From NCBI RefSeq assembly GCF_000223215.1, contig NC_017243.1, positions 2,914,001-2,978,000 on the forward strand: a stretch of DNA of 64,000 nt, in the 5' to 3' direction. Numbering within the stretch: position 1 is the first letter of the stretch; every line of letters begins with the position of its first letter. A program made the translations under genes and the position numbers. Below the pieces are notes generated by a model. The model saw only the letters and a list, made by a program, of their open reading frames with translations. It was not told the DNA's origin and did not search any database. The DNA comes from Brachyspira intermedia PWS/A. Lineage in GTDB: Bacteria > Spirochaetota > Brachyspiria > Brachyspirales > Brachyspiraceae. Shown here one piece after another: positions 13,165-50,318 of this stretch.

Positions 13165-13361
13165 TTTTAATAAATAATTTTAAGAATTAAAAGAAATATT
13201 TTTTAACAAGTAATATTTAGTTAAAAAATGCAGTCCTTTTGCTTCTTTGGGTCACCAAAAGAAGTGGGGTGCGGGGCAAAGCCCTGCAAAAATAAACTAT
13301 AGTAGATTATTATATAATAAAATCGCTTATTATTCAAGGATGTAAAAAAATATATTTTTAT
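13165..13361. repeat. Left flanking direct repeat of the radical SAM island
   Basis: About 200 bases that match 24744-24962 in the same orientation. Both start with TAAGAATTAAAA(G/T)AAATATTTTTT and end with a nearly identical block of about 50 bases (13310-13361 here, including AAAATCGCTTATTATTCAAG). This copy also contains a 60-base dispersed element (13231-13290: GCTTCTTTGGGTCACC, AAAAGAAGTGGGGTGCGGGG, CAAAGCCCTGCA) that recurs at 29830-29887 and 30090-30172. The remaining sequence up to 13466 is AT-rich with nothing else recognisable. Confidence 0.7.
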
Positions 13362-13466
13362 ACAAATAATTTCCAACCATAAAAAATATATATTAAAATA
13401 TTGATTTTAAATCTATTTTATAATTAAAAGTATGTAACATACAATATATTTAATGATTATTATATA

Positions 13467-13494
13467 TTGACTTATTTTTTTATTAGGTTATAAT
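13467..13494 (+). promoter_or_regulatory. Promoter of the precursor peptide / radical SAM operon
   Basis: TTGACT (13467-13472) and TATAAT (13489-13494) are 16 bases apart. A transcript would start near 13500 and leave a leader of about 30 bases, with GAAGG (13518-13522) 7 bases before the ATG of the precursor gene. Confidence 0.7.
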
Positions 13495-13529
13495 ATAAAT
13501 AAATATTATTAACTTGTGAAGGTATATTT

Positions 13530-13664
13530 ATGAATAATACATCATCTGAAATAGTTTTAAATGATCAGGAAGTTCAAGATTTTGTAACTTTTTTAAATGA
13601 AAAAAAAGAATTTCTTGATACAGGTTTAGGTGCATTTCATACAGATAATCATAGTAATTGGTAG
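13530..13664 (+). CDS. Putative RiPP precursor peptide, 44 residues
   Basis: A short frame that starts MNNTSSEIVLNDQEVQ, continues with an acidic helical stretch (DFVTFLNEKKEF) and ends in GAFHTDNHSNW. It is the first gene after a strong promoter and has a good ribosome binding site. It is followed at once by a radical SAM/SPASM gene whose possible TTG start overlaps its stop. A charged N-terminal part followed by a Gly/His/Asn/aromatic C-terminus is the usual leader-core layout of a ribosomally made, modified peptide. It has no Cys, so thioether (sactipeptide) or lanthionine chemistry is excluded. Likely targets are the aromatic, His or Asn residues of the last eleven (for example C-C or C-O cross-links, as in triceptides); this is inference. 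No protease site such as GG is present, although LGAF could be a cut point. Confidence 0.7.
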   Translation: MNNTSSEIVLNDQEVQDFVTFLNEKKEFLDTGLGAFHTDNHSNW

Positions 13665-14769
13665 AAATTATTGTGATTAAAAGAGATGTTATTTTTTTCG
13701 ATAAAAATAAAATAATTCATTTAATTTTAAAGCTTGCAGGTTCTTCTTGTAATATAAACTGTACTTATTGTTTTGAAAAAACTAAAAATTTGTTTTCATC
13801 TGAATCGATAAATAAAGATTTCTTAGTAGAATTTATAAATGGTATAAAAAATCAGATAGTTGTTACGCTTCATGGCGGTGAGCCTTTACTTATTGGTAAA
13901 AAAAAATTATAGAGATACTTGATTTATTATCAGAATTTTATCCAAATAAAATTATTAATATATATTTGCAAACTAATGGTATATTATTAGATGATGAATG
14001 GATATATATAATATTTGAGCAATATAAAAAATTAAATATAGAAATATCCATAAGTTTAGATGGTTCATTTGAAATGAATTCTCTAAGAATAAATTATAAT
14101 AATCAAAATACTTATAATGATGTACTTAATGCTTATAGATTATTATCTAAAAATAATATAAATGCTGGAATGCTTAGTGTAATTTCTAAACATTCATTAA
14201 ATTTATATGTTGAATATATTGAGTTGATAAAAAAAATTGATAATCTAAAATTTGTAAAAATCAATCCCCTATTTAATATGGAAAATAATAATCTAAGTAA
14301 AGATAGTATAACTCCAACTGAATTTGCACAATTTATAATAAATGTAGCAAACTTATATATAAAGGAAGAAATATATAAAAAAATAGCAATAGAACCAATA
14401 TTAAGTATGATTCAAAAAATTAATAATAAAGAATCTAAATATTGTAATTATAATAAAAATAAATGCTATCAATTTATATCTTTATATCCAAATGGATTAG
14501 TAGCACCATGTGATTGTTTTTCTAGCAGTGAATTTGAAATAAATATTGATAAAACAATATCTATTAGTGAAAATATTGTCAATGCTATTAATGAAAATAC
14601 AATTTTTAACAGCCTTATGAATGATTGTAAAAATTGTAATATATTTGATTTTTGTAATGCAGGATGCATATCACAAAGATATTACTTTAGAAATAATAAA
14701 GATTTATATGATGATTATTGTGAATCAAAAAAAATGTTATATTCATTTAGTAGTAAATTTAAGGTCTAA
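13658..14769 (+). CDS. Radical SAM/SPASM peptide maturase (one-base frameshift)
   Basis: The N-terminal part carries the [4Fe-4S] motif CNINCTYC in LAGSSCNINCTYCFEK, then LHGGEPLL; after the frameshift come LQTNGILLDD and SISLDGSFE. The C-terminus is a SPASM-type auxiliary cluster region: CYQFISLYPNGLVAPCDC, CKNCNIFDFCNAGC and a final YCESK. This pattern matches peptide-modifying enzymes of the GrrM/XyeB/FxsB type. Reading breaks at a run of nine A (13898-13906); one more A restores a frame of about 370 residues (first part ends at 13912, second resumes before 13966). The start may be TTG at 13658 or GTG at 13673. It directly follows the putative precursor and is 5 bases from the next gene. 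Substrate assignment is inference. Confidence 0.85.
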
Positions 14770-14774
14770 CTAAA

Positions 14775-16599
14775 ATGTTTATATCCGATATAATTGTTAA
14801 TGCTATATATATTAATATACCTTTTTGTCTAAGAAAATGTAGTTTTTGTCATTATGTTAATAATCTAAAATATTCATATTCAAAAGTTGAGGATTCTTAT
14901 TTTATTATATTATTAAAACAGTTAGAATATGTGTTAAAAAATATAAAAAATAATAAATTAAGTAGTATATATTTTGGAGGCGGTACTCCATCACTTTTAA
15001 ATGAACATCAAATAAACCAAATAAAAGAATTATTTGATAATTATAATATTTCATCAGAAGAAGTATCTATAGAAATATATCCGGATATATGCAACTTTGA
15101 TTATGATAATAATAATTTTTTTAATAGATTTTCAATAGGTGTACAAAGTTTTGATGACAAATTATTAAAACTTTATAACAGAAAAAATTATGATTATAAA
15201 ATCATAGAAGATATTATATATAAAATAAAAAAAATAATAATAACAATAAAGTTAATATTGATTTGATTTTCGATGAATATATTTTAGAAGATGATATAAC
15301 AAAAGCATTAAAACTATCTCCGGATTCTATAGTATTTTATCCAAACACAAAAAATAGAGGCTTAAAAAGATTGATAAATATTTATGATTCTTTAAATAAA
15401 TTATCATTTTCTGTTAAAAATTATAAACCTCTTGGAAAATCAAAATTCATATATTTAAAAGAGAATACAGAAGAATCAAATTATTCCAAAGTAGAATATC
15501 GCTATATTGGAAATATAATAGGTATAGGTCATAATAGTGTTTCTTATATAAATAATGAATCATATCTGTCTATTTTTGATGGTGAAAATTTTTATTTTAA
15601 TAAAAGAGATAGAATACCAAGATATCATAATACAATAATATCTTCGTCATTTACAGGAGTACTCAAAAATACAATTAATAAATATTTCAAATCTCTTTTA
15701 GATTGTAATTTATTTATAGAAGATGAAAATAATAATGAAGTTATATATATACCCGAATATAATTATATTTATTTCTACAAATATTTATTAGAAAATTATA
15801 ATAATAAATATGCTGAAGTTTTTATATCTAGTGTGTCATTTGGAGATTCAGATTATCATAACATAGAATATATTGTCAACAATTATATTGACGATGAAAC
15901 ACAAAATAATTTGAAAGATTTTTCAAAAGCTAATAATATATGCAATAATAACAAAGCATTTATTAGAAAAAAAGCTCCAAATAAATTCATATTAATTGAA
16001 GGTATAGATGGAAGCGGTAAAGATACATTTGCAAACTTTTTACAAAGTGAAATAAAAAAAGATTTAAATACACTAAAGATGCTCCTGTATCAATTATAGG
16101 TCAGCCATATTCCAATTTTAAATATGGCAAAGAATCAAAATCATTTATAGAAGATTTAAATAAAAAATATACCAAGCATCAAGTTATAGAATATTTAACT
16201 GAAAATAGAAAGGAATCTGAAAAATACATCAATAATCTTGGGGGCATTGTTATATGTATAAGGGGAATATTAACTGATATAGCAACATTTAATTATGCCT
16301 TTAATGAAAATACGGATAATCAATTTGGATTATGTTCAAGTTTAAAAAGAATAGATGAACTTATAATAATTGATGTAGATGAAAATGAAGCTGATATAAG
16401 AATAAAAAATAGAAATATACCAAGGACTTGGAGAGAATATTTACCTCAATTAAAATATTTTAGAGAGTTTTACATAAATCATAATTTAGATTGTATAAAT
16501 AATAAAACAATAATAATAAATGATGATTTCGAGTATTTACAAAAAATGGCAAAAATAATATCTAATAAACTCTATTTTGAGGATTCTTTTAATGGATAA
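14775..16599 (+). CDS. HemW-like radical SAM enzyme fused to a thymidylate-kinase-like domain (two frameshifts)
   Basis: Joined across two A runs (eight A at 15227-15234, seven A at 16054-16060, each apparently one base short), this is one frame of about 608 residues. Residues 1-375 resemble HemN/HemW: YINIPFCLRKCSFCHY with CxxxCxxC, YFGGGTPSLL, IGVQSFDDKLLKLYNR and NIDLIF. From about residue 410 there is a P-loop, LIEGIDGSGKDTF, typical of thymidylate kinases. Further on come GQPYSNFKYG, the region RIDELIIIDVDENEADIR and RNIPRTWREY. HemW-like proteins include class C radical SAM methyltransferases of peptide antibiotics, so methylation or another radical step is possible. I know of no described fusion of this kind. 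The third part runs past 16099 to the stop at 16597-16599. Confidence 0.78.
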
Positions 16600-17545
16600 A
16601 GGTATTACTTTAATACTTAATCTAGTTGGTAATGCATGTAATATGAATTGTTCATACTGTTATGAACATGATACAATTAAATATGATACTATAAATAATT
16701 TAAATATAGCTAAAATAAACGATGTTAAAGAGTTTTTATCTAGCTTTATTGATTATCATCATATACATATATTATTTCATGGTGGTGAACCATTATTATA
16801 TGGAAAAGATCTTATAAAAGATATTTTAAAATTTATAAAAACTAATTTTCTAAATAAATATACTATACAGATACAAACTAATGGTTTATTAATAGATGAT
16901 GATTTCATTAATATTTTTCTTGATTATAATGTACAATTATCAATATCACTTGACCCTATAGGAGATATGGACTTAAGAAAAGCTAATAATTTTGAATATA
17001 GGAAAGTAGTTATTTCAAATATTTCAAAATATATAAAAAAAATAGATACTATAGGAATAGTATCTGTTGCTCACAAATATAATATAAATTATTTTAAAGA
17101 ATTTATAGATGAACTAATAAATTATAAAATAAAATTTTTAACTATTAATAAGATAAGATATTCAACTCATAATACAGATTATTATATAACAGAAAAAGAA
17201 TATAATAAAATGCTAAAAGAGATTTTGATATATTGGATAAATAACAAAAAATACAAATCTATAGATATACAGCCATTTATATCTTTATTAACTGACAGTA
17301 AAATATGTATTTATTCGTCTGATAATAATAAATGTAAATATTTTAAAACTTTTTATAATAAAGAATATAACACTGAATATTGCAGCCATATTATTTCAAA
17401 TAAAATGCCAAATGTTGACAAGAAATGTTTGGAATGTTATATTTATGATTGGTGCGGTGGCGGATGTTTAGTCGATCAAAAAGATGAAACCTTTTGTGAA
17501 TCTAGAAAAGACTTTAAATTATTTTTGGATAAAATAAAACTATGA
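16592..17545 (+). CDS. Second radical SAM/SPASM peptide maturase
   Basis: The product has about 317 residues and an intact frame. I choose the ATG at 16592 because GAGG (16579-16582) lies 9 bases before it; an upstream TTG at 16577 would put the start inside that site. The iron-sulfur motif is GNACNMNCSYCYEH, followed by LFHGGEPLLYGKD, IQTNGLLIDDD and SISLDPIGD. A Cys-rich SPASM-like tail follows: CKYFKTF, CSHII, CLECYIYDWCGGGC and FCESRKDF. It is a paralogue of the genes at 13658 and 23414. Its start overlaps the end of the kinase fusion by 8 bases, and its stop overlaps the start of the UvrA-like gene (ATGA), so the genes are translationally coupled. Confidence 0.88.
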   Translation: MDKGITLILNLVGNACNMNCSYCYEHDTIKYDTINNLNIAKINDVKEFLSSFIDYHHIHILFHGGEPLLYGKDLIKDILKFIKTNFLNKYTIQIQTNGLLIDDDFINIFLDYNVQLSISLDPIGDMDLRKANNFEYRKVVISNISKYIKKIDTIGIVSVAHKYNINYFKEFIDELINYKIKFLTINKIRYSTHNTDYYITEKEYNKMLKEILIYWINNKKYKSIDIQPFISLLTDSKICIYSSDNNKCKYFKTFYNKEYNTEYCSHIISNKMPNVDKKCLECYIYDWCGGGCLVDQKDETFCESRKDFKLFLDKIKL

Positions 17546-20500
17546 AAATTAATAATCTAATAGCAAATAACATAATAAATTTAAATAAAAATATTGATTT
17601 TGATAAATCAATTTCTATATCAGGGCTTTCTGGTTCAGGAAAAACTACATTTTGTAAAGTAGTAAGTGATGAGTCTTTAAAACGTATAGTTACTCTTTTA
17701 CCAAAGGTAGAATATAGATTTTTATTTTCTGAATTTCTCAAAACAAACTTTTCTGCTCAAAATATTACTAATATACCATTAACTTTTTTTTTAGAAAAAA
17801 CTTCTACCTCTTCAAATGTTAGATCAACAGTTGGAACTTATACACCTATATTTAAAACTATAAGAAGTTTATTTGCTAAAAAATATAAATGCCCTTCTGA
17901 ATTTTTCTCATTTAATAATTCTAAATTTTGGTGTAAAAAATGCAAAGGAAGAGGCTATAATGCAATGGTGGAATGTAAAGAATGTAATTCTGAAAGATAT
18001 TCTGATGAAATAAAAAAATATACTATAACTTGTCATGATAAAGAATATAATATTATTGATTTTAATAAAATGAATATATTTAAATTGATAGAGTTATCTG
18101 ATGAATTGGGTTTTAATAAAAGTATTAAGAAAATGCTTGATAATATGATAAAATTGAATATTGGATATTTATCATTAGATAGAATAGTTAGTACATTATC
18201 AGGCGGTGAAACTACAAGATTATTATTATCAGAATTTATTACATACTCTGTCAATTCTCTTATAATAGCAGATGAATTATCTATAGGATTAGATGAAGAT
18301 AGTCTATATAATATGCTTGAACAGATTGGTGATCTATCAAACAATAATCAATTATGGCTTATAGATCATAATAATATAGTTATTAATTCAACACAAGAAA
18401 AAATTTATTTTGGACCAAAAAGCGGAAAATACGGAGGAAAAATAGTAGATGAATCTCCTAGACCAAAAGAAGAATTTTTTGAAATAAATGAGTCTGAAGC
18501 AAAAGATTATTATGTTTTCAGCGATTTAGAAAAACGTAATTTAAAAATAAAAGAATTAAAGATTCCTGAAAACAGACTAATATCAATAGTTGGAGAATCA
18601 GGATGCGGAAAATCTACTCTTGTAAATGATTGCATATCGTCTGTTTTTAATAAATTATACAAAAATGCAAAACTAATTTTAATAGGTCAAAATAGAAATC
18701 AATCTATAACTTCCAAGTCCACTATTGAAACATTTTTGGATATAAAAAATAATCTATCAAAAATTAAAGATTTGAATAAAAATGCCCCTATAGAAGACAT
18801 TATAAACATGATAGATACAAATGAGAAGGCATATAAATACCTATCTTCTTTAATAGATTTAGGTTTAGGTTATCTGAATTTAAACAGAAAAATACAAACT
18901 CTATCTACAGGTGAATTCCAGTGTGTGCATTTAATTTCAGAATTATTTATAGATTTGAATAAAAAAACTCTATTCATATTTGACGAACCTTCAAAAGGTC
19001 TTTCACAAAATATTTTAAATAAATTCATGAAATATATACATAATATATTGAACAATAAAAATATCACTGTAATTATGATAGAACATAATAGCTATATAAT
19101 AAAACTAAGTGATTTCATAATAGATTTTGGTAAAAGAACAGATAATATAATATCTCACTTAAATATACTTTCTAATTCAAAATACCATGATAATAAAAAG
19201 AAAAATAATAAAAATATTATGATAAAATCATCAATTTCTAATAAATCTGGAATAGAGTATTTAAAAGATGAAGAAGTTGAAGATTATTTTAAAAAATCAG
19301 AAAATATATTTAAAGGAGGAATATTAAAGAATATATCACAAACTGCTAGATGGATATATGGTGATTATTTTTCAGATGAAGTCATACCTGAAATAGCAAT
19401 AGATTTTGAAAGTCAGCTTTACAGTAAAAATACATTTTTATATGAAACATTAGGTATAGTAAACAGAATTATTTCTTTGGGGGATAATGTTCTTATAGAT
19501 GATATAGATATTTTTGATTATTATAATGAAGAAAATTTATGTAAATGCTGCCGCGGAAATTCAGTAATAGATTCTTTTAATATAAATAACATTATAAAAA
19601 ATAAAGATTCAAATCTTTGGAATGATCTATTTGAAGATGATATAATGAAAGCATTAAAAAATTATAATTTTCAAAAAATAAAATTTTTATTTAAAGAAAT
19701 AAAAAAAGATTCTAAATTGGATTTGAATAAAGATTTTTCAAAAATGAACCCTGATGAAATAAATACTTTTTTATACGGATATTGGAAAACAGATTTTTAT
19801 GATTCAGACAAAAAGACTAGAAGATATTGGAAAGGAATAATTTTCTTAATAAAAAAATATATGAAACAGTCTAAGAGCAAATTAAAGGAAATTATAAATA
19901 GTTCTAAAGAAGAAATAATATGTCCTATATGTAATGGCAGTATATTAGGTCATAATAATAAATTTTATATAAAGAATAAAGATATAAGAGATATTTTATC
20001 TTCTAGTATATCAGAAAATATGAACATATTATCTGATATAGAGCCTATAAATAGTGTAATAGATATACTAGGCAAAGATATAAAATTAAATTATGATGTA
20101 TCTAATTTGCCTCAGGATAAGCAGGCTAAATTAAAATTATTAGAAATATACTACTCTAGTTTTTACGGATTTTATATAGTACTAAAAAATATAAATCCAT
20201 TTAAAGATTATGCAAAGAAAATAATAGAAAATATAGCAATAAATAATAAAGTTATAATTTGTGATTATAAAAACATTAATGACACTAAAGAAAATATACT
20301 AAACAATGATTTTTCAAATTATAAAATTAATTCATTTGTTTATGAATTATTTGGATTTAAAAAAATATCAACTGAAATTAATAAAATAATAAAAAGCTAT
20401 CCATGTGAACATTGTAATGGAAAAAAATTAATTAGAGAAGAAGGAGTCTTCGAAGGTATAGATGCATATGAAGTACCTTGTGACATATGCGGTGAAACAG

Positions 20501-20694
20501 GTATATCGGAAAAGGGGTTAAAACAAATAATAGATGGATATTCTGTAGATACTTGGATTAATGGAACTATATCTGATGTTATAAAAAATAACATTAATAT
20601 AAAAGACATAAAAGATATAAAAATTTATTCTAAAATTAAAGATTTAAATAAAAAAGAATTAATGAATTTACTGAATTATTTAAAGGAAAAATAA
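17542..20694 (+). CDS. UvrA-like ATPase with a long unknown C-terminal domain
   Basis: The product has 1050 residues and an intact frame. The first 540 form a tandem ABC ATPase of the UvrA type. Walker A GLSGSGKTT is at 28-36, and RSTVGTYTPI is near 93-104. A zinc-finger block (CKKCKGRG, ECKEC, RYSDEI) sits around 131-160, and the signature LSGGE near 220 precedes Walker B SLIIADELS. The second Walker A, GESGCGKST, is near 351, followed by a degenerate signature LSTGEF near 455 and Walker B FIFDEPSKGL near 480. The last 500 residues have no UvrA counterpart and carry several Cys pairs (CKCC, CPIC, CEHC, CDICGETG), the last two resembling a DnaJ-type zinc finger. UvrA paralogues in antibiotic clusters, such as DrrC, give self-resistance to DNA-binding products. 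That role, or a mechanistic one, is possible here. It overlaps both neighbours by 1-4 bases. Confidence 0.85.
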   Translation: MKINNLIANNIINLNKNIDFDKSISISGLSGSGKTTFCKVVSDESLKRIVTLLPKVEYRFLFSEFLKTNFSAQNITNIPLTFFLEKTSTSSNVRSTVGTYTPIFKTIRSLFAKKYKCPSEFFSFNNSKFWCKKCKGRGYNAMVECKECNSERYSDEIKKYTITCHDKEYNIIDFNKMNIFKLIELSDELGFNKSIKKMLDNMIKLNIGYLSLDRIVSTLSGGETTRLLLSEFITYSVNSLIIADELSIGLDEDSLYNMLEQIGDLSNNNQLWLIDHNNIVINSTQEKIYFGPKSGKYGGKIVDESPRPKEEFFEINESEAKDYYVFSDLEKRNLKIKELKIPENRLISIVGESGCGKSTLVNDCISSVFNKLYKNAKLILIGQNRNQSITSKSTIETFLDIKNNLSKIKDLNKNAPIEDIINMIDTNEKAYKYLSSLIDLGLGYLNLNRKIQTLSTGEFQCVHLISELFIDLNKKTLFIFDEPSKGLSQNILNKFMKYIHNILNNKNITVIMIEHNSYIIKLSDFIIDFGKRTDNIISHLNILSNSKYHDNKKKNNKNIMIKSSISNKSGIEYLKDEEVEDYFKKSENIFKGGILKNISQTARWIYGDYFSDEVIPEIAIDFESQLYSKNTFLYETLGIVNRIISLGDNVLIDDIDIFDYYNEENLCKCCRGNSVIDSFNINNIIKNKDSNLWNDLFEDDIMKALKNYNFQKIKFLFKEIKKDSKLDLNKDFSKMNPDEINTFLYGYWKTDFYDSDKKTRRYWKGIIFLIKKYMKQSKSKLKEIINSSKEEIICPICNGSILGHNNKFYIKNKDIRDILSSSISENMNILSDIEPINSVIDILGKDIKLNYDVSNLPQDKQAKLKLLEIYYSSFYGFYIVLKNINPFKDYAKKIIENIAINNKVIICDYKNINDTKENILNNDFSNYKINSFVYELFGFKKISTEINKIIKSYPCEHCNGKKLIREEGVFEGIDAYEVPCDICGETGISEKGLKQIIDGYSVDTWINGTISDVIKNNINIKDIKDIKIYSKIKDLNKKELMNLLNYLKEK

Positions 20695-21659
20695 TGTTAA
20701 CATACGATTTAAAAGTTGGATATTCATGCAACAACAGATGTAAGCATTGTGTTATAGCTGACAGCAGTGATAAACTTGCAGATAATAATATAAATATAGA
20801 TTTAACTACAGAAGAATGTTTAAAACAAATAGATGATCAAGTAAAAAATGGAATCAATAAAATAGTTTTGACCGGCGGAGAAGTTACAATAAGAAAAGAT
20901 TTTGATACTTTGATAAATAAATGCGTTGAAAATAATTTATCTATAACAATACAAACAAATGGAAGAAGATTAAATAATGATTTTATTTTAAATTCAATAA
21001 AAGATGTAGATGATATAAAATTTGTTGTGGCATTGCATGGAGCAAAATCAAATACTCATGATACAATCACTTGTGTAAAAGGAAGTTTTGATGAAACTTG
21101 CAAAGGTATTTCAGCAATTATTGATTATAAAAAAATTCTTATATTGAAAGTAGTAATATCCAAAATAAATGCTGAGGAACTTCCAGATATTGTTACTCTT
21201 GCAAATAGTTTAGGAGTAAAATACATATGCTTTGCTTTCCCACATGGACAAGGAAATGCTAGGAAGAATTTTGAAGAGGTTATACCAAAATATTCTTATT
21301 TGCAGCCTATTTTAGATAAAGTCGTTTCCAATTCAATAAAATATAAAATTAATATAGAATTTGAAGCAATTCCTTTTTGTATACTTCATAAATACATGCA
21401 TTTAGTAGGAGAATTAAAATATTTAAAAAGTGAAGAAATATGTTCTCAAGTACATGAAGAAGTTTTTGATTGGAATGAAATAAGACATTCTATAAAAAGA
21501 AAAGGAGATAATTGCCAAAAATGTGCGTTATATTCCATATGCGAAGGACCTTGGTCTGAATATGTAGAAGCTTTTGGTAGTGATGAATTAAAACCTATAA
21601 TTGTTTCAGAAGAACAAAAAAATAAAATATTAGAAGCATTAAAACAATTTACATTTTAA
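20694..21659 (+). CDS. Radical SAM enzyme, MoaA/NifB-like subclass
   Basis: The product has 321 residues. The cluster motif is GYSCNNRCKHC (CxxxCxxC); then LTGGEVTIRKDFD, TIQTNGRRLNN and VALHGAKSNTHD follow. The C-terminus has a Cys-rich signature CQKCALYSICEGPWSEYVEAFG, with a preceding CILHKY and EEICSQ that could help bind an auxiliary cluster. It differs from the three SPASM paralogues of the island in its TGGE (not HGGE) motif and its C-terminal pattern. Its ATG overlaps the stop of the UvrA-like gene by one base, so it is part of the same operon. It ends convergently with the TPR gene, sharing 4 bases. Substrate unknown; action on the same precursor is inferred from position only. Confidence 0.85.
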   Translation: MLTYDLKVGYSCNNRCKHCVIADSSDKLADNNINIDLTTEECLKQIDDQVKNGINKIVLTGGEVTIRKDFDTLINKCVENNLSITIQTNGRRLNNDFILNSIKDVDDIKFVVALHGAKSNTHDTITCVKGSFDETCKGISAIIDYKKILILKVVISKINAEELPDIVTLANSLGVKYICFAFPHGQGNARKNFEEVIPKYSYLQPILDKVVSNSIKYKINIEFEAIPFCILHKYMHLVGELKYLKSEEICSQVHEEVFDWNEIRHSIKRKGDNCQKCALYSICEGPWSEYVEAFGSDELKPIIVSEEQKNKILEALKQFTF

Positions 21660-23404
21660 GCAAGAGGTGCTTTTGAAATAGTAAATTTTAATCCATAAGG
21701 AGTTCTAATATCATTTTCTAAATCTTTTTGAAATCCTTCAATTAATGAAACAGGATCTTTCACTTTTGGACCTATTATAACTTCTCTTAATGCATCTCTA
21801 TCAAATATATTTAAATAATCTTTGTATAGAGTTTTACTATCTTCATCATATTGAACATCATTATCTGACATTTCTGCCACTTGCAAAATTCTCATTTCCT
21901 GTTCTTCTACAAAAGCCGCATCTTTTATAAGATATTGTATATTAATTAATAATTTATATAAAATTTTTAATTTTTCTCTTTCTGTATTGTTTTTTATAAA
22001 AATTTCAAAAATTTTATTAAATATATACCCTATTCTATTTTTTAATTTTTCTTCTTCTTTAAGACTGTTATCATTATTCCACTTATAATTGTTTGTTTCA
22101 TTTAAACCTATTTCTATAGCCTGATAATTAGAAGGAGTTTGATTGAATATTAATTTATTTTCATAATGGTCATAATACATAATACTGTAAATAGGTAAAA
22201 CATTATTTTTTTTATCTGATATAGGTGTAGATGGATTTTTAAAAAACACATCAAAAAAATTTTTATTAAATACTAAACAAACACCTGTTCCCTCATTTTT
22301 ATCATCTTTGCTGTATTTAGTGTTTTTACCATATAATCTAAACATAGTTAGAGAATCTCTGACTCTTGTAAAAGAAGTTTGTAAAGCAGCAAATGATATA
22401 TTTTTCTTTTTTACACCAAAATTATTTTCCATTTCATCATAATTTATATTTATTTCTTTTTTATATAATATATCATTAATTATTTTACCTTCTCTATAAT
22501 CATTAACTCTTGATACGCTGAACATTTTTAATTTAGATTTATTTTCTTTATATAATTTCATAAATACATCTATGGATATATATGTACATAATTTATCTAT
22601 ATTTCCTTTTTTTCTTACAGATAATAAATCAAGCATAATATACTGCAATATCCATAATTTTTTATATTCATATATATTATTTACATCTGGTTTAACAATA
22701 TAATTAAAATATTCTTCTTTTTCCCATATAATGTCAAGATTACAAATTTTATCTATAATATTTGTAAAACTATTATCAAATTTATCATTTACTTTATCTA
22801 AATAAAATATTATATTATGAACAATGAAATTTATATTTATAATATTACTATACTTATCTAAAATTTTTGTATCTTCAAATATATCAAAAAAACTATTAAT
22901 CTCTTTTTCGCATATACATTTAGATATAATAACATTACAATATCCTATAAAAGCATTTGTATATATATCTTCGCTATCACTATTCATAGCTCTTTTATAA
23001 TCATAAATAATTTTATTTAGATCATCATTATTATTGTTATATTTATTATGTAATGCATTTGCTTTATATACATGATATTTATAATCTTTATCATTACCAT
23101 TATTTATTATCTCATTATATATTTCTATTGCCTTATCATATGATGACTCCTCATTATATACTAATGCTAGTAATTTTTTAGATTTATCATATGTATTATT
23201 TTGTAATAATTTTTCTATTTTATCAAAAAAAGATTTTTTTTCATTTTCATCTGAAAGTAAAGCTAATTGGTAATATACTTTAGATATATAATAGTTTATT
23301 TCATTTTGATCATTTTGATTATTTTTTTTCTCATCTTCTAGAAATTTTATACATTCATCATATTTTTTACTATAAAATAATTCATTAAATTTACATAATA
23401 GCAT
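21656..23404 (-). CDS. TPR protein with DUF2971-like C-terminal domain
   Basis: The product has 582 residues. Residues 1-150 contain TPR-like helical pairs (YSKKYDECIKFLEDEK, SSYDKAIEIYNEIINN, DLNKIIYDYKRAMN). From about residue 310 the pattern fits DUF2971: SFAALQTSFTRVRDSLTMFRLYG, GTGVCLVFN, the EEQEMRILQVAE segment and REVIIGPKV. This matches the usual order CFS..DN..MW.HYA, GVCLEF, YE.E.R and IILG. DUF2971 proteins are of unknown biochemistry and are often found near mobile or defence genes. AGGAGG at 23410-23415 precedes the ATG at 23404 by 5 bases and overlaps the likely stop of the radical SAM gene upstream, so the two are coupled. The DUF2971 assignment is from pattern memory and needs a profile search. 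Confidence 0.72.
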   Translation of the reverse strand: MLLCKFNELFYSKKYDECIKFLEDEKKNNQNDQNEINYYISKVYYQLALLSDENEKKSFFDKIEKLLQNNTYDKSKKLLALVYNEESSYDKAIEIYNEIINNGNDKDYKYHVYKANALHNKYNNNNDDLNKIIYDYKRAMNSDSEDIYTNAFIGYCNVIISKCICEKEINSFFDIFEDTKILDKYSNIININFIVHNIIFYLDKVNDKFDNSFTNIIDKICNLDIIWEKEEYFNYIVKPDVNNIYEYKKLWILQYIMLDLLSVRKKGNIDKLCTYISIDVFMKLYKENKSKLKMFSVSRVNDYREGKIINDILYKKEININYDEMENNFGVKKKNISFAALQTSFTRVRDSLTMFRLYGKNTKYSKDDKNEGTGVCLVFNKNFFDVFFKNPSTPISDKKNNVLPIYSIMYYDHYENKLIFNQTPSNYQAIEIGLNETNNYKWNNDNSLKEEEKLKNRIGYIFNKIFEIFIKNNTEREKLKILYKLLINIQYLIKDAAFVEEQEMRILQVAEMSDNDVQYDEDSKTLYKDYLNIFDRDALREVIIGPKVKDPVSLIEGFQKDLENDIRTPYGLKFTISKAPLA

Positions 23405-23413
23405 AAATACCTC

Positions 23414-24468
23414 CTAACAATTATTAATATAGGACAATATATATTTTTTATTTCTATTCTATACTGACAATATTCTTCTAATAATTTTTCATTATATTTT
23501 CTATACATATTTCTAACAGATGGGCATCCACCTGAACAAATTTCCAACATATTACATGATTTACAATATTCTATTTCTTTTTCTATATATTCTGGATATG
23601 AATTAAACAAAGATTTTGCATTTTCATCTGTATGCATGGCATCACAAAACATTATAGATTTATCAGGATAAACTGAATAAAATTTATTACATTTCAAATT
23701 AAATTCTTTATTATTATTATTGAAACTTTCTATTATATCTGTAATAGGATCTAATTTAAATTTCTTATAAGTTTTATATTTTATCATATAATTAAATGCA
23801 TCTTTTAGGGATTTTAAATATTGAAGCGGTGTAATTGAATATTCTTTTATTCCATTATTATCAATATCAAAACATGGATTTAACTTTAAAAATTTAATGT
23901 TGTTGAAGTTAGAGAAATATTCTATAATATCATACATTAAATTATATGATTTTGAATTAATAGTTGCAATACATCTAAATTCTATATTTCTCTTATCTAT
24001 TAAATTTAAAAATTCATTTATTTTATTAAAAGCTTTTTCTTTATTGAATAACCTAAATATACTTGCCTGATAATTACCATCTAAACTTATACTTAAACTT
24101 AAATTATCTTTATTTTCATAGAAAAAATCTACCCAACTTTCATCTAAATATCCATTTGTTTGTATAGCAGGCTTATATATAAATTCAGACTTTTTTATAA
24201 AATTTATTATACTAGAAATATTATCCTTACCAGATAAAGTAGGTTCGCCACCGTGAAATATTATATGTGTATCTCTTGGCAGACCATCAATAATTTCTAA
24301 TATATTATTAAGATTAAAAGTATTTTTTTCTTTATAAAAATCTTTTATTATCTCAGAACAATATAAACAGTTCATATTACATATATTACCATTTAATTTT
24401 AGTAAAATGGTTTTAGGATCAAAAATACTATGTGAACAAACTTCCATAAATACATTATAATATGTCAT
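23414..24468 (-). CDS. Third radical SAM/SPASM peptide maturase (frameshift at its end)
   Basis: The motifs are LNGNICNMNCLYC, IFHGGEPTLSGKD, AIQTNGYLDE and SISLDGNY. The SPASM-like tail is CNKFYSVYPDKSIMFCDA, CKSCNMLEICSGGC and YCQYR. It is a paralogue of the genes at 13658 and 16592 but on the opposite strand. The uninterrupted frame runs on to 23347, with a hydrophobic tail overlapping the next gene by 58 bases. Adding one base to the T6 run at 23444-23449 instead ends the protein in YILSYINNC at a TAG (23414-23416) just before the AGGAGG of the next gene. That is a much better fit, so I use it. The start may be ATG 24468 or ATG 24447; neither has a clear binding site, and the uninterrupted upstream codons to 24564 look non-coding. 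Confidence 0.8.
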
Positions 24469-24481
24469 AATGAATTTGCAA
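24454..24481 (-). promoter_or_regulatory. Possible promoter giving a leaderless start for the third SPASM gene
   Basis: On the minus strand, TTGCAA (24476-24481) and TATAAT (24454-24459) are 16 bases apart. TATAAT is followed by GTATTT and the ATG at 24447, so a transcript would begin almost at that ATG. In such AT-rich DNA this may be chance. Confidence 0.35.
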
Positions 24482-24743
24482 TAATTTTTATAAATCAATA
24501 TAAATATTTTAAAAAAATATGTATTAATTAATAGAAAAATGTAATATATATATAGTAAAATCAATTTTTTAATAAAAGGAATTAATTAAAAGTAATACAA
24601 CTTAGTTATACTAATATCTACCTATCACTTATAATAAATATAAAAATTAGAATTATTAAAATCCTTTATTTTACAGTTTTACTATCTGTACGTTAGACTT
24701 ATTCTAATAATATACTATTTATGTTTATAAATAAAGTAAAATA

Positions 24744-24962
24744 TTTTAAGAATTAAAATAAATATTTTTTGGCAAATAGTTTTAAGTTAAAAAACACAGT
24801 ATTTTTAATTCTATCAGTAGGTGGTCATCACTGATACCTATGGAACGCAATATGTTGGAAAAATAAGTTGTATACGGCACAAAGCCTAGCAAAATTAACT
24901 ATATTATATTGTTATATAATAAAATCGCTTATTATTCAAGGATGTAAAAAATATATTTTTAT
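24744..24962. repeat. Right flanking direct repeat of the radical SAM island
   Basis: Same orientation as 13165-13361. It begins TTTTAAGAATTAAAATAAATA and ends with the shared block at 24912-24962 (AAAATCGCTTATTATTCAAG and following), which differs from the left copy by one A. The middle part (24790-24890) is a diverged copy of the 60-base element seen on the left. The sequence from 24482 to 24743 is AT-rich and contains no second precursor-like frame that I can find. Confidence 0.65.
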
Positions 24963-32868: not shown

Positions 32869-35203
32869 CTAAAAATTATAATTTTGTAAATATTCTAATA
32901 CATCTGTATTTATTTTAAAACATTTTGTATCCATTGGTATTGTATTATTTTCTTTTTCATAAACTTCCACTTTATATCTATTTTCGGAAGATAATGGTTC
33001 ACCATAAATTTTAATGGTTTTATCATCTATACACATCTCTAAATACGTCTCTTCATAAGAGCACTGCTTTTTATATTCAATTTTTTTAATACCACTTAAA
33101 TTTTGTTTTAGCAAAAATAAATACAATAAATAAGAAAAGAATTCAACATGATGAGAAGACATTATGGCTTTCTCTATTAGATAAAATTTATCATACAATT
33201 TATAATTTTTATTATGTAAAATTCTTCTAAAATTATCCAATTTATAGTAATCATTTATTAATAACTCTCTCCAATCTTTTACTTCACTATTTTTTATTAT
33301 CATCAATAAAGAATTCTTTATATCATTTGAAGATATATTATCTACATTACAATATTTATATATTTCATCGAAGACATACTTTAATATAGGAATAAAATTA
33401 TCTTTTTTTAACATTCCTTTCCAATATCCCCTGCTCTTATTATAAAAATTATCTTTTCGTTCTAAAAAGAAGTAACATTCTTCTTTTTTTCCATATGTTA
33501 ATAATGCCCTTTCAAACAATCTATCTTCAATATCTTTATTAATACATTCATTACCACTCTCAGAATGAAAAATATATTCAGCTATCTTTCTGTATTTATC
33601 AAATAATTTAGTATCATATTCTTTGCTATCATTAACAGACATATCAAGCAAAAATTTTATCTGATACTTACAAAATTCATTATTTTCCATTTCTATTATT
33701 CTATTTTTCCATAATTCTTCATTTTCAGTAATAAGAGATGCCTTAATTTTTTCTTCTTCTCTCTGATAAACATCAAAACATTTTATATCTATATTCTTTA
33801 CAAAATCTAAAATATTTTCTGAATTTTTAATGAACTTATCAATAGCTTTTATATCTCTAATATAATTATCTTTACTATTATCTGTATTTTCTGTATAATT
33901 TACTATAACTCGAATTAACTCATTAAAGTTATATACAGTATTATCATCATCTAAAATTTTATCGCTATACTTTATTATATATCTATATAAAGCAGCAAAA
34001 TTAATTCTATCCATAAATGTAACATCATTATCTAATATCTTATTAATATTTTTAGAAATATCATATCGTTCATGTTTATTATACTTATCAAAACACTCTT
34101 TCATCTTTATTAAGCAATCTAAAAATATAGTTACTCCTTTTATACTTTCTTCGTTTATAACTTTTGAACAATAATAATCTTCAAAATATAGAACCTGTTT
34201 TTCTTTATTATTAAAATAGTTTTCTTCATTATCTTTATTATTTTCATTTGAATATATTCTCTCATAATATTCATTATAAAAAATGTTATGAAAGAAATTC
34301 ATTACTTTTTCATCAAATAGCTTCTCATCAAATTGATTTTTATCATCTTTACAATATGATAGAAAAAAATCAGACCAATCTGTATCTATTTTCCTTGAAA
34401 AATACTCACGTAAATTAAAACATTTATCAGCTATTTTATACTGTAATTGTGCCCCTATCTTTTCTTTATTTAAATACTGTTCCAATTTTGCTTTAAAATT
34501 TTCAAAAGCAGTTAATGGTATTCCTGTAGAATTCATTTTTATATAAATATCATCAGATAAACTCATACTCTTATCTTCTAAATCTAAAAATTGAAAAGAT
34601 ATAAGTTTATCTTTATTTTCAATTAAATTATCAAAAAATACCTTCAATATCATTAAAATCTTTAAATTGATTATTGATAACATTCATTGTATTAAGCATA
34701 GCATTTATAGTAGGATCATAATACCATAAATACATAAACCAATTTTTATTTTTTACAATATCAGAAATATCTTTATCATTATTAAAATCATTAAATAAAT
34801 CTTTATTTACTATAGTATTGCAAAAATCCAAAGAACTTGCTCTAACTTCATACTGTAGTTTAGACTTTAATATATCATTTTCTTTTAATGTAAATTTTTC
34901 TCTAAACTTTTCCATTTTATTACTTTTTTGTGCCAAATACCAATATAGTAAAAATAATGTAGTTATTCTCTGCTGTCCGTCTAATATAATATATTTATTA
35001 TCTTTTTTTACTCCGTATATAAAATCAAGCTCGCATTGTGTTTTATTTAATAATGCTTCTTTTAAATAACTAATAAAATTATTTATTACATTTTTTTCTT
35101 TATCTCCGCACATTCTTCCTTGAACATAATCTCTCTGCATTGCTGGTATTAAAATAATGGATTTATTTTCAATAATATCAATTAAACTTTTTAATTCAGT
35201 CAT
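32869..35203 (-). CDS. DUF262 (GmrS-like) restriction protein with long helical C-terminal part (frameshift)
   Basis: The N-terminal DUF262 domain has the motifs LIPAMQRDYVQGR and, near residue 75, YIILDGQQRITTLFLLYW; the family is ParB-like and acts with DUF1524 nucleases. The frame breaks near 34633-34638. It is restored by a T run one base shorter (or two longer), so GIF continues into DNLIENKDKLISFQFLDL and IYIKMNSTGIPLTAFENFK, the second DUF262 half. About 777 residues in all. I see no clear HNH motif in the remaining 500 residues. The start is ATG 35203 with GAGG 9 bases upstream, right after the stop of the DUF262/DUF1524 gene at 35205. The two genes therefore probably form one system, like the single-chain GmrSD family of type IV restriction enzymes that cut modified phage DNA. 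Confidence 0.78.
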
Positions 35204-35204
35204 A

Positions 35205-37032
35205 TTATATTTCCTCAAAATATTCTTTTATAGTTTCCTCTATTTCCTCTTGATATGCCTCTGCATCTTCATCACTCCAATGAAAAAGATTTGTTAAAGC
35301 AGAACTATAAACTTTAGTAAAAACATTTTTTGTAGCTATTGGTATAAAATAGCCTTTAGAATCTTTTTCCAAAATAGTTTTTCTTTTGAAAGGAAACCAA
35401 GCATTTTTATATGCTCTATTAGTTTCTGAATCTAATAAAGCTAAATTACCAATAGAATTTATATTACCAAAATTATCATCAAAATTAAAATAATCTTTTA
35501 CCAAGTTAAATAATTTATTAAAATCATCATTATTTTTTGACTGTTCATATTTTTTTATATATTCATCTATTTGCTTACATATTTCTTTATAATCATCATT
35601 TTCTTTATCATCTTCTTTACTTATATCAATATTAAAAAAATCTTTAATCATCTTACACCATTCATCTTTACATGTAATATCTTCTTCTGTAACTTGAGAA
35701 TGTATATGTTCTATATCCCAACTATGTTTTTTGAACTCATCAAATGGAAATTTTATTACTGACTTATTCTTAATAATGATTATTATATTAAATAAAAGCA
35801 ATATTTTTTTATAATATCTTTATCTTTATATTCTATCTTATTTAAAGTTAGTTTATTATTAGTAGTATTATTATCATATATTTTATTTTTTATATTTTTA
35901 TGTATAATATTTTTTATTGATTTTCTAAAATCATCTTTAGTTTCAGCACTATTATATTCATCTATAATATCTTTTATTGACTTTATATTAAAACACATAA
36001 TAAAACCTATTAAATGAAATAGTTCTAAATCATTATAAAAATAATTAAAAATATACATTATATTTTTTACTTCCTGCCATTTAATATCAATGATAGATTT
36101 AATATTATTTTTATTTTTATTTTTATTTTCACTATTTTCACTATTTTTAAAAAAATCATTATAATATTCATTGAATGTATATCTTATTTCTTTTTTATTA
36201 TCTAAATTATCTTTTATTATATCAAATATATATTCAATTCTATTTATATAATTTTTTTATTATCATTTATAAAATACCAAAAAGAATCATTTTGCAAAGT
36301 ATTTTCTATACTGTCCCATTCATTTGATATTTGTATTTGTTTTGCTTTAAGAAGTTCATGCTCACTTTCATCAGGCCAAGTCTTTAGAAATAAAGCTTTT
36401 ATTAATTCAGCATTAGTAAGCTCTATCTTTCCTATATTTAATCTTGAAAATATTTCATACTCTTTATCAGAATTTTTAGTATCATCATCTATTTCATACT
36501 CTTTATCAGAATTTTTAGTATCATCATCTATTTTATACCAAATGAACCCAACTTTTTTATTATTTTCATCTCTTTCTGCTTCAAGCAATTTTTTTATATT
36601 CTCTTTATCTTCTTCTTTTTTATTTTCAAAATATTCTTTTATAGTAATATATGCCTTTACCATATAATGGAAATCTATATTATCTATATTTTCAGAATTT
36701 GCATCTTTATCTATATTTTCCAAAAAATCCTTACTTTTTTCTCTGCTTTCATATGACAATTCATAAGATATAGAACTTTTTAAATATTTAAGTATCATAT
36801 AAATAGTAGTAAGTCTTTGCTGCCCATCTATAACTTTATAATAACCATTCTCTTCTTTTACTACTAAAGGCTGCAAACAGTAAAAAGTATTACTAGATTG
36901 ACAATGCTCATATAAATCTTTCAAAAGCTGTTCAACTTGTGCTTTTCTCCATTTATAGCCTCTTTGATAGCTTGGTATTTTAAATTTATATCCAGAAATA
37001 TCATTTATATAATTAATTGTTAAATCGCTCAT
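35205..37032 (-). CDS. GmrSD-like DUF262/DUF1524 restriction protein (two frameshifts)
   Basis: It starts at ATG 37032 (MSDLTINYI..., GGGG upstream). The DUF262 domain has KIPSYQRGYKWR and, near residue 85, YKVIDGQQRLTTIYMILKYL, plus EYEIFSRLNIGKIELTNAELIKA. The frame breaks at two runs of seven T (36252-36258 and 35804-35810). One added base at each joins all three parts into about 609 residues. The C-terminal part carries the DUF1524 HNH-type motif HSWDIEHIHSQ followed by GNLALLDSETNRAYKNAWFPFKR, the expected nuclease end. A directly repeated 16-residue segment (EIDDDTKNSDKEY) lies near residue 210. Single-chain GmrSD proteins restrict glucosylated or otherwise modified DNA. The frameshifts are probably sequence errors, but a real inactivation cannot be ruled out. 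Confidence 0.82.
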
Positions 37033-37216
37033 AGCATACCCCAAAAACACAAACAAAAATATATATTATTTTTTATAATATAAAGCATATAATAATGTAT
37101 TTTAATAATAATATCAATACAAATATTTTCTTAATTTATCAAAAATTTAAGGCTTAAAATGATAAAAAAATTTGTTTAACTATATGTATATAAAAATTAA
37201 TATAACGGAGTTTTAT

Positions 37217-48803: not shown

Positions 48804-50318
<1,515 letters not shown>

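Follow-up and report, generated by a model that had tools for sequence, protein, structure and literature searches.

What does a block of radical S-adenosylmethionine (SAM) genes gathered around a UvrA-like ATPase do in a spirochaete, and do its parts form one system? The question is posed by a 64,000-nucleotide stretch of the Brachyspira intermedia PWS/A chromosome (the window), in which a sequence-only reading had proposed a peptide-modification system with five radical SAM enzymes. We placed the window's genome (G000, 3.3 Mb) in a sample of 26 genomes of the genus, and find that the genes were inserted as a single unit and that a diverged operon of the same kind is intact in another genome of the genus (G014). 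The probable function, taken alone, is the maturation of a ribosomally synthesised and post-translationally modified peptide (RiPP); our best explanation, judged overall by its main line and not for each step, is a horizontally acquired RiPP cluster with UvrA-like DNA protection, for which the balance stands even.

The block is an 11.6 kb insertion (window 13350-24951) with direct repeats on both sides, which the earlier reading had not described. The boundary repeats lie at 13289-13349 and 24891-24951 (93% match) and an outer pair at 13171-13246 and 24737-24812 (80% match), neither assigned a strand; the left outer copy contains part of a repeat dispersed through the genus. Three related species (G002, G006 and G008) carry the empty site, with sequence left of 13347 joined to ~24973 and a single repeat copy, and the gene set thus moves as a unit. 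No integrase is carried by the block, and homologous recombination between the direct repeats would be the simplest route of insertion. On the plus strand a promoter is followed by a 44-codon open-reading frame (ORF), a SPASM-type radical SAM enzyme (A), a fusion of a HemW-like radical SAM enzyme with a thymidylate-kinase-like domain, a second SPASM enzyme (B), the UvrA-like ATPase and an HxsC4/MoaA-like radical SAM protein. The close gene packing reported earlier holds, in that neighbouring genes overlap or almost touch, with the correction that the third SPASM enzyme (C) and a TPR-like/DUF2971 gene are a separate pair on the minus strand, convergent to the others; we sought a small-peptide ORF upstream of this pair and found none that was convincing.

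The main evidence for one system is the co-occurrence of two rare genes in the same cluster of the same two genomes. The enlarged C-terminal region of the UvrA-like protein gave strong matches in 2 of 345 genomes of the phylum, G000 and G014 (1e-239 and 1e-108), the 20 remaining matches (1e-10 to 1e-15) looking like UvrA frames of ordinary length; the HxsC-like profile was strong in the same two of the 345, the next best match standing at 3e-54 and the weaker matches that follow lying in four other spirochaetes. Since both genes share these genomes, the association recurs. The G014 operon (locus L030, minus strand) runs from a 50-amino-acid (aa) precursor-like ORF behind GGAGGAT (10455-10303) through a SPASM enzyme (10294-9131), an HxsC-like enzyme (9156-8254) and a class-I methyltransferase (8264-7527) to a 1268 aa UvrA-like ATPase (7509-3703), with all genes intact. 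Protein identities between the two clusters are about 26-34%, so that they are old relatives long kept together, and this operon, with the layout kept, a precursor-like ORF of its own and SPASM enzymes resembling peptide maturases, strengthens the RiPP interpretation first made from the window alone. Beyond the phylum the HxsC-like profile found nothing at 1e-30 in 398 Bacillota genomes, a scan that had no positive control. Among plasmid and phage records the matches inspected held no second cluster, the top UvrA-like match being a lone gene in Niallia, and a three-profile scan of viral contigs gave no match.

All five radical SAM genes of the block keep the CxxxCxxC motif, and A (13658-14769, plus), B (16592-17545, plus) and C (23347-24447, minus) share the SPASM cysteines CxxCx5CxxxC, TIGR04085 being matched in A and C. 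The three paralogues seen earlier are SPASM enzymes by their cysteines, B and C as intact genes, but the frame of A is interrupted at an A9 run (from 13898); read through, A is a full-length SPASM enzyme. Broken genes were read through with an X at each break before profile comparison. The best curated models were the anaerobic sulfatase maturase, then YhhB, DynA, FxsB, XyeB and DarE, with YhhB first for B alone. Enzymes of the YhhB, FxsB, XyeB and GrrM/OscB types form three-residue cyclophanes, with i to i+2 links of the kinds W-x-N, W-x-D, H-x-A and H-x-R (PMC11002830).

Sulfatase maturation itself we rejected. The best structure match, by sequence and by fold, is the maturase anSMEcpe (4k37), and A, C and the G014 enzyme share its Cys-Asp motif, but scores against the equivalog TIGR03942 (cut-off 349.45 bits) were far too low (A 153.5, C 93.8, B 70.8, G014 enzyme 213.3). 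One branch (89/94) holds A, B, C and the G014 enzyme; the genus's own maturases, some of which adjoin sulfatase genes (L154, L157, L159), lie apart from it, whilst neither the island nor the G014 operon has a sulfatase gene. An AlphaFold model of enzyme C has low confidence (pLDDT ~60) and repeats the sequence assignment without adding to it.

The other two radical SAM genes belong to different classes. The HemW-like gene (14775-16599, plus), described earlier as a kinase fusion, is one when read through, matching HemN/HutW-type enzymes and thymidylate kinase (33.3 bits, Pfam cut-off 27), the kinase domain passing that cut-off solely in the read-through version; as assembled, the gene breaks at 15227 and 16054. 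The MoaA-like assignment of the protein at 20694-21659 (plus) was borne out, and its relation is to HxsC4 (108 bits, cut-off 500). A true Hxs system is nevertheless rejected: the HxsC-like protein stands alone, with no HxsB or HxsD, no precursor of His-Xaa-Ser (HSHG) repeats and a SPASM partner of a different class. Such systems do occur in other spirochaetes. Several of the weaker HxsC-profile sites whose surroundings were read are Hxs-type clusters, HSHGSHG precursors being among their features. L130, L131 and L133 are clusters of the His-Xaa-Ser type, and in L131 and L133 precursors ending in HGSHGSHG-like repeats stand beside several radical SAM genes.

The promoter and short ORF at the head of the block were both recovered. 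The sigma-70-like promoter TTGACT-16-TATAAT (13467-13494, plus; 11 of 12 matches) ranked first of 156 promoter-like sites, its score tied with three others and the total barely above that of shuffles. The 44 aa ORF (13530-13664, plus) lies behind a GAAGGT ribosome site (13518-13523) and ends in FHTDNHSNW; it has no match among the 25 other genomes of the genus, and, with a random expectation of ~2.6% for such an ORF on that strand, it is weak by itself. Its tail contains the aromatic-x-x motifs H-T-D and H-S-N, and the G014 ORF contains W-G-N, Y-A-K and Y-N-K. Two aromatic-x-(N/D) motifs within 12 residues occur in 1.5% of such segments of other proteins, a figure that is suggestive at most because the motif was picked after inspection, and the G014 tail has one. 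Of the weak matches to the G014 ORF in other genomes, the one inspected was a random frame that overlaps with a longer gene and was discarded.

The UvrA-like assignment (17542-20694, plus) also held, with Walker A, an LSGGE-type signature and Walker B complete in each ABC half (GLSGSGKTT, LSGGE and IADE; GESGCGKST, LSTGE and IFDE). At 1e-10 its matches in the PDB were UvrA chains only, and Ecm16 (7sh1) matched at 6e-44. The UvrB-interaction domain PF17760 did not appear in the 25 families listed for the window or the G014 protein (weakest listed E 0.03-0.09), whilst the genus's own UvrA, as a control, matches it at 6.8e-35. Similarity to the UvrA DNA-binding domain is retained, as PF17755 in the G014 protein and weakly in the window protein (714-780). 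The window protein shares its long C-terminal Zn-finger region, which has CxxC pairs, with a family in Bacilli (46-51% identity) and more distantly with the G014 protein; here too the AlphaFold model (pLDDT ~60, low confidence) merely repeats the sequence assignment. UvrA-like proteins without a UvrB-binding domain occur in DNA-intercalator clusters, where they give self-resistance to intercalators and bisintercalators and serve as cluster markers (PMC10413001, PMC10192343), and it is this role that leads us to DNA as a target. DrrC, Ecm16 and class II UvrA are like the window protein in their twin ABC ATPase domains and Zn modules, in lacking a detectable UvrB-binding domain and in having a gene clustered with biosynthetic-type enzymes. 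Unlike them, the window protein has a long additional C-terminal part with more CxxC pairs, and the closest kin found for it are not actinobacterial resistance genes.

We propose that the 44 aa peptide would be the substrate, an acidic leader being followed by the aromatic/Asn-rich tail. The SPASM enzymes would form cyclophane-type C-C bonds between aromatic side chains and residues close by, for which H-x-D and H-x-N in the window peptide and W-x-N in the G014 peptide are candidate sites, and the HxsC-like enzyme may add a second change of unspecified kind. The HemW-like/kinase fusion in the window and the methyltransferase in G014 could be optional tailoring steps, and the UvrA-like ATPase would take the product off the producer's DNA, or shield that DNA, as proposed for DrrC and Ecm16. 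DNA as the target, with UvrA-like self-protection, we regard as possible though short of even, and the combination of RiPP, cross-linking chemistry and self-protection as tentative. Triceptide systems (XncB/XyeB, OscB, FxsB/MscB, YhhB, HaaB) set a SPASM enzyme beside a short precursor whose C-terminal part holds aromatic-x-(N/D) motifs, an arrangement that the window and G014 clusters may share, but these two contain from two to five radical SAM genes, drawn from different classes, and a UvrA-like ATPase. Dynobactin and darobactin, whose DynA, DarE and DarW models are among the best-matching SPASM models, share the aromatic/Asn-rich core; they lack the extra HxsC-like and HemW-like radical SAM enzymes and the UvrA-like ATPase found here, whereas their export and protease genes are absent from our clusters.

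Several observations weigh against this explanation. No radical SAM enzyme reached a family cut-off: those of YhhB, FxsB, XyeB, GrrM and AmcB were all missed, the top score being 156 bits for the G014 enzyme against YhhB (cut-off 445). Neither cluster has a transporter, a protease or a recognisable RRE domain. The putative precursor recurs in position, as a small ORF in the same place in G014, but not in sequence: the two ORFs are not significantly similar and cannot be aligned (shuffle p 0.05-0.16), and that of G014 has one Cys where the peptide had been described as Cys-free. In Bacilli, where the UvrA-like protein has its nearest relatives, the gene stands alone, and such a radical SAM gene was absent from the flanks (~10 kb at most loci) of 80 Bacilli homologues, so the protein need not be part of peptide biology.

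SPASM-A and the HemW-like/kinase fusion, two of the block's five radical SAM genes, are moreover frameshifted in the assembly, the first at the A9 run 13898-13906 and the second at an A8 run (15227-15234) and an A7 run (16054-16060), each break being the shift expected from one missing A in a poly-A run. As two genes are broken and G014 carries only two such enzymes, the earlier claim of a single peptide acted on by all five is unsupported. Either sequencing error or genuine decay could explain the frameshifts. Compared with three relatives, homologous flanking genes are free of frameshifts (apparent splits were paralogue matches), and an assembly-wide fault is not obvious, because open ORFs outside the island hold 48 A/T runs of at least 7 compared with 27 inside it, but GmrSD-type (DUF262) restriction genes on the same accessory chromosome stretch (window 32869-37056) are in several overlapping pieces and also look frameshifted.

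The rival that survives best, though we consider it improbable, retains a RiPP without DNA action: the UvrA-like ATPase would have another role, for instance in handling the peptide or using ATP to release it, whilst the product would be a signal or a membrane-active peptide comparable to dynobactin and darobactin. The closeness of the SPASM enzymes to the DynA and DarE models and the lone occurrence of the UvrA-like family in Bacilli agree with it; however, the known UvrA-like proteins of biosynthetic clusters work at DNA (PMC10413001, PMC10192343), and the window and G014 proteins keep their similarity to the DNA-binding domain.

Somewhat less probable still is an intracellular defence or stress island, in which the UvrA-like ATPase would sense DNA and the radical SAM set would make a retained effector, a modified peptide or a nucleotide. 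The block is accessory, has no exporter, includes a thymidylate-kinase domain and lies 8 kb from the GmrSD restriction genes, and PADLOC gave viperin matches, each of them partial, for SPASM-B (3e-19) and for the HxsC-like protein (2.5e-10). Viperin/pVip was nevertheless rejected: SPASM-B matches viperin_w_prok only partially (61 bits, cut-off 180), the full-length model staying under its cut-off, and SPASM cysteines are present, which viperins are not known to have. Peptide maturases are matched better, the short ORF recurs upstream, and no PADLOC match covers a whole system; MADS was rejected because its models match single ABC or methyltransferase domains alone. Quite unlikely is an accidental grouping of unrelated accessory genes, with a random 44 aa ORF and stray sulfatase maturases, which the chance frequency of the ORF, the nearest single family and the loose constraint suggested by broken frames would allow, but which the recurrence of the same set at such low identity and the lack of a sulfatase gene in either cluster argue against.

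If real, the RiPP cluster with UvrA-like protection would give the DNA-intercalator clusters traced by UvrA-like resistance genes a counterpart of ribosomal origin, and would extend the pairing with UvrA-type self-protection beyond non-ribosomal and polyketide DNA binders. That it represents a new spirochaete class of ribosomal peptides, radical-SAM-cross-linked, DNA-binding and with dedicated UvrA-type self-protection, is a speculative prospect, in a phylum from which few RiPPs are known: in a survey of anaerobes, azol(in)e-type clusters alone were reported for this group, in Brachyspira strains (PMC4289311). The claim that the gene set is undescribed stands for the libraries and the open-access literature searched, the latter yielding no description of it. 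The search rule gained is a SPASM enzyme, an HxsC-like enzyme, an enlarged UvrA-like ATPase and a short aromatic-tailed ORF, and the small intact G014 operon is suited to a single expression experiment.

Further features accompany these genes. The TPR/DUF2971-like protein was correctly named (21656-23404, minus), with PF11185 above cut-off and the TPR-like N-terminal part read from the sequence. The dispersed repeat (CTTTTGCTTCTTTGGGTCACCAAAAGAAGTGGGGTGCGGGGCAAAGCCCTGC..., window 13224-13296) has matches in 25 of the 26 genus genomes, often in 20-35 copies each. The UvrA-like family with the long C-terminal Zn-finger region is common in Bacilli (L031-L110, gene at ~9.3-13.2 kb in most), where an SRPBCC gene precedes it in most of six inspected loci and some also have an ArsR-type regulator. 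The genus's own UvrA (L006, L011 and other loci) lies in an open frame of ~1940 aa, about twice the usual length and similar to the long form of UvrA in NCBIfam PRK00635 (1809 positions). On a 9.4 kb plasmid of Cetobacterium somerae (L112 5736-8312), a 29 aa ORF and the genes for a SPASM-type radical SAM enzyme and an MFS transporter stand side by side and could be a minimal cluster for peptide modification. On an Agathobacter rectalis plasmid (L111 7992-10423) an MFS transporter gene comes after a radical SAM gene, in a layout like that of the Cetobacterium pair. The window has no tRNA genes and one complete 16S rRNA gene, at 48804-50318.

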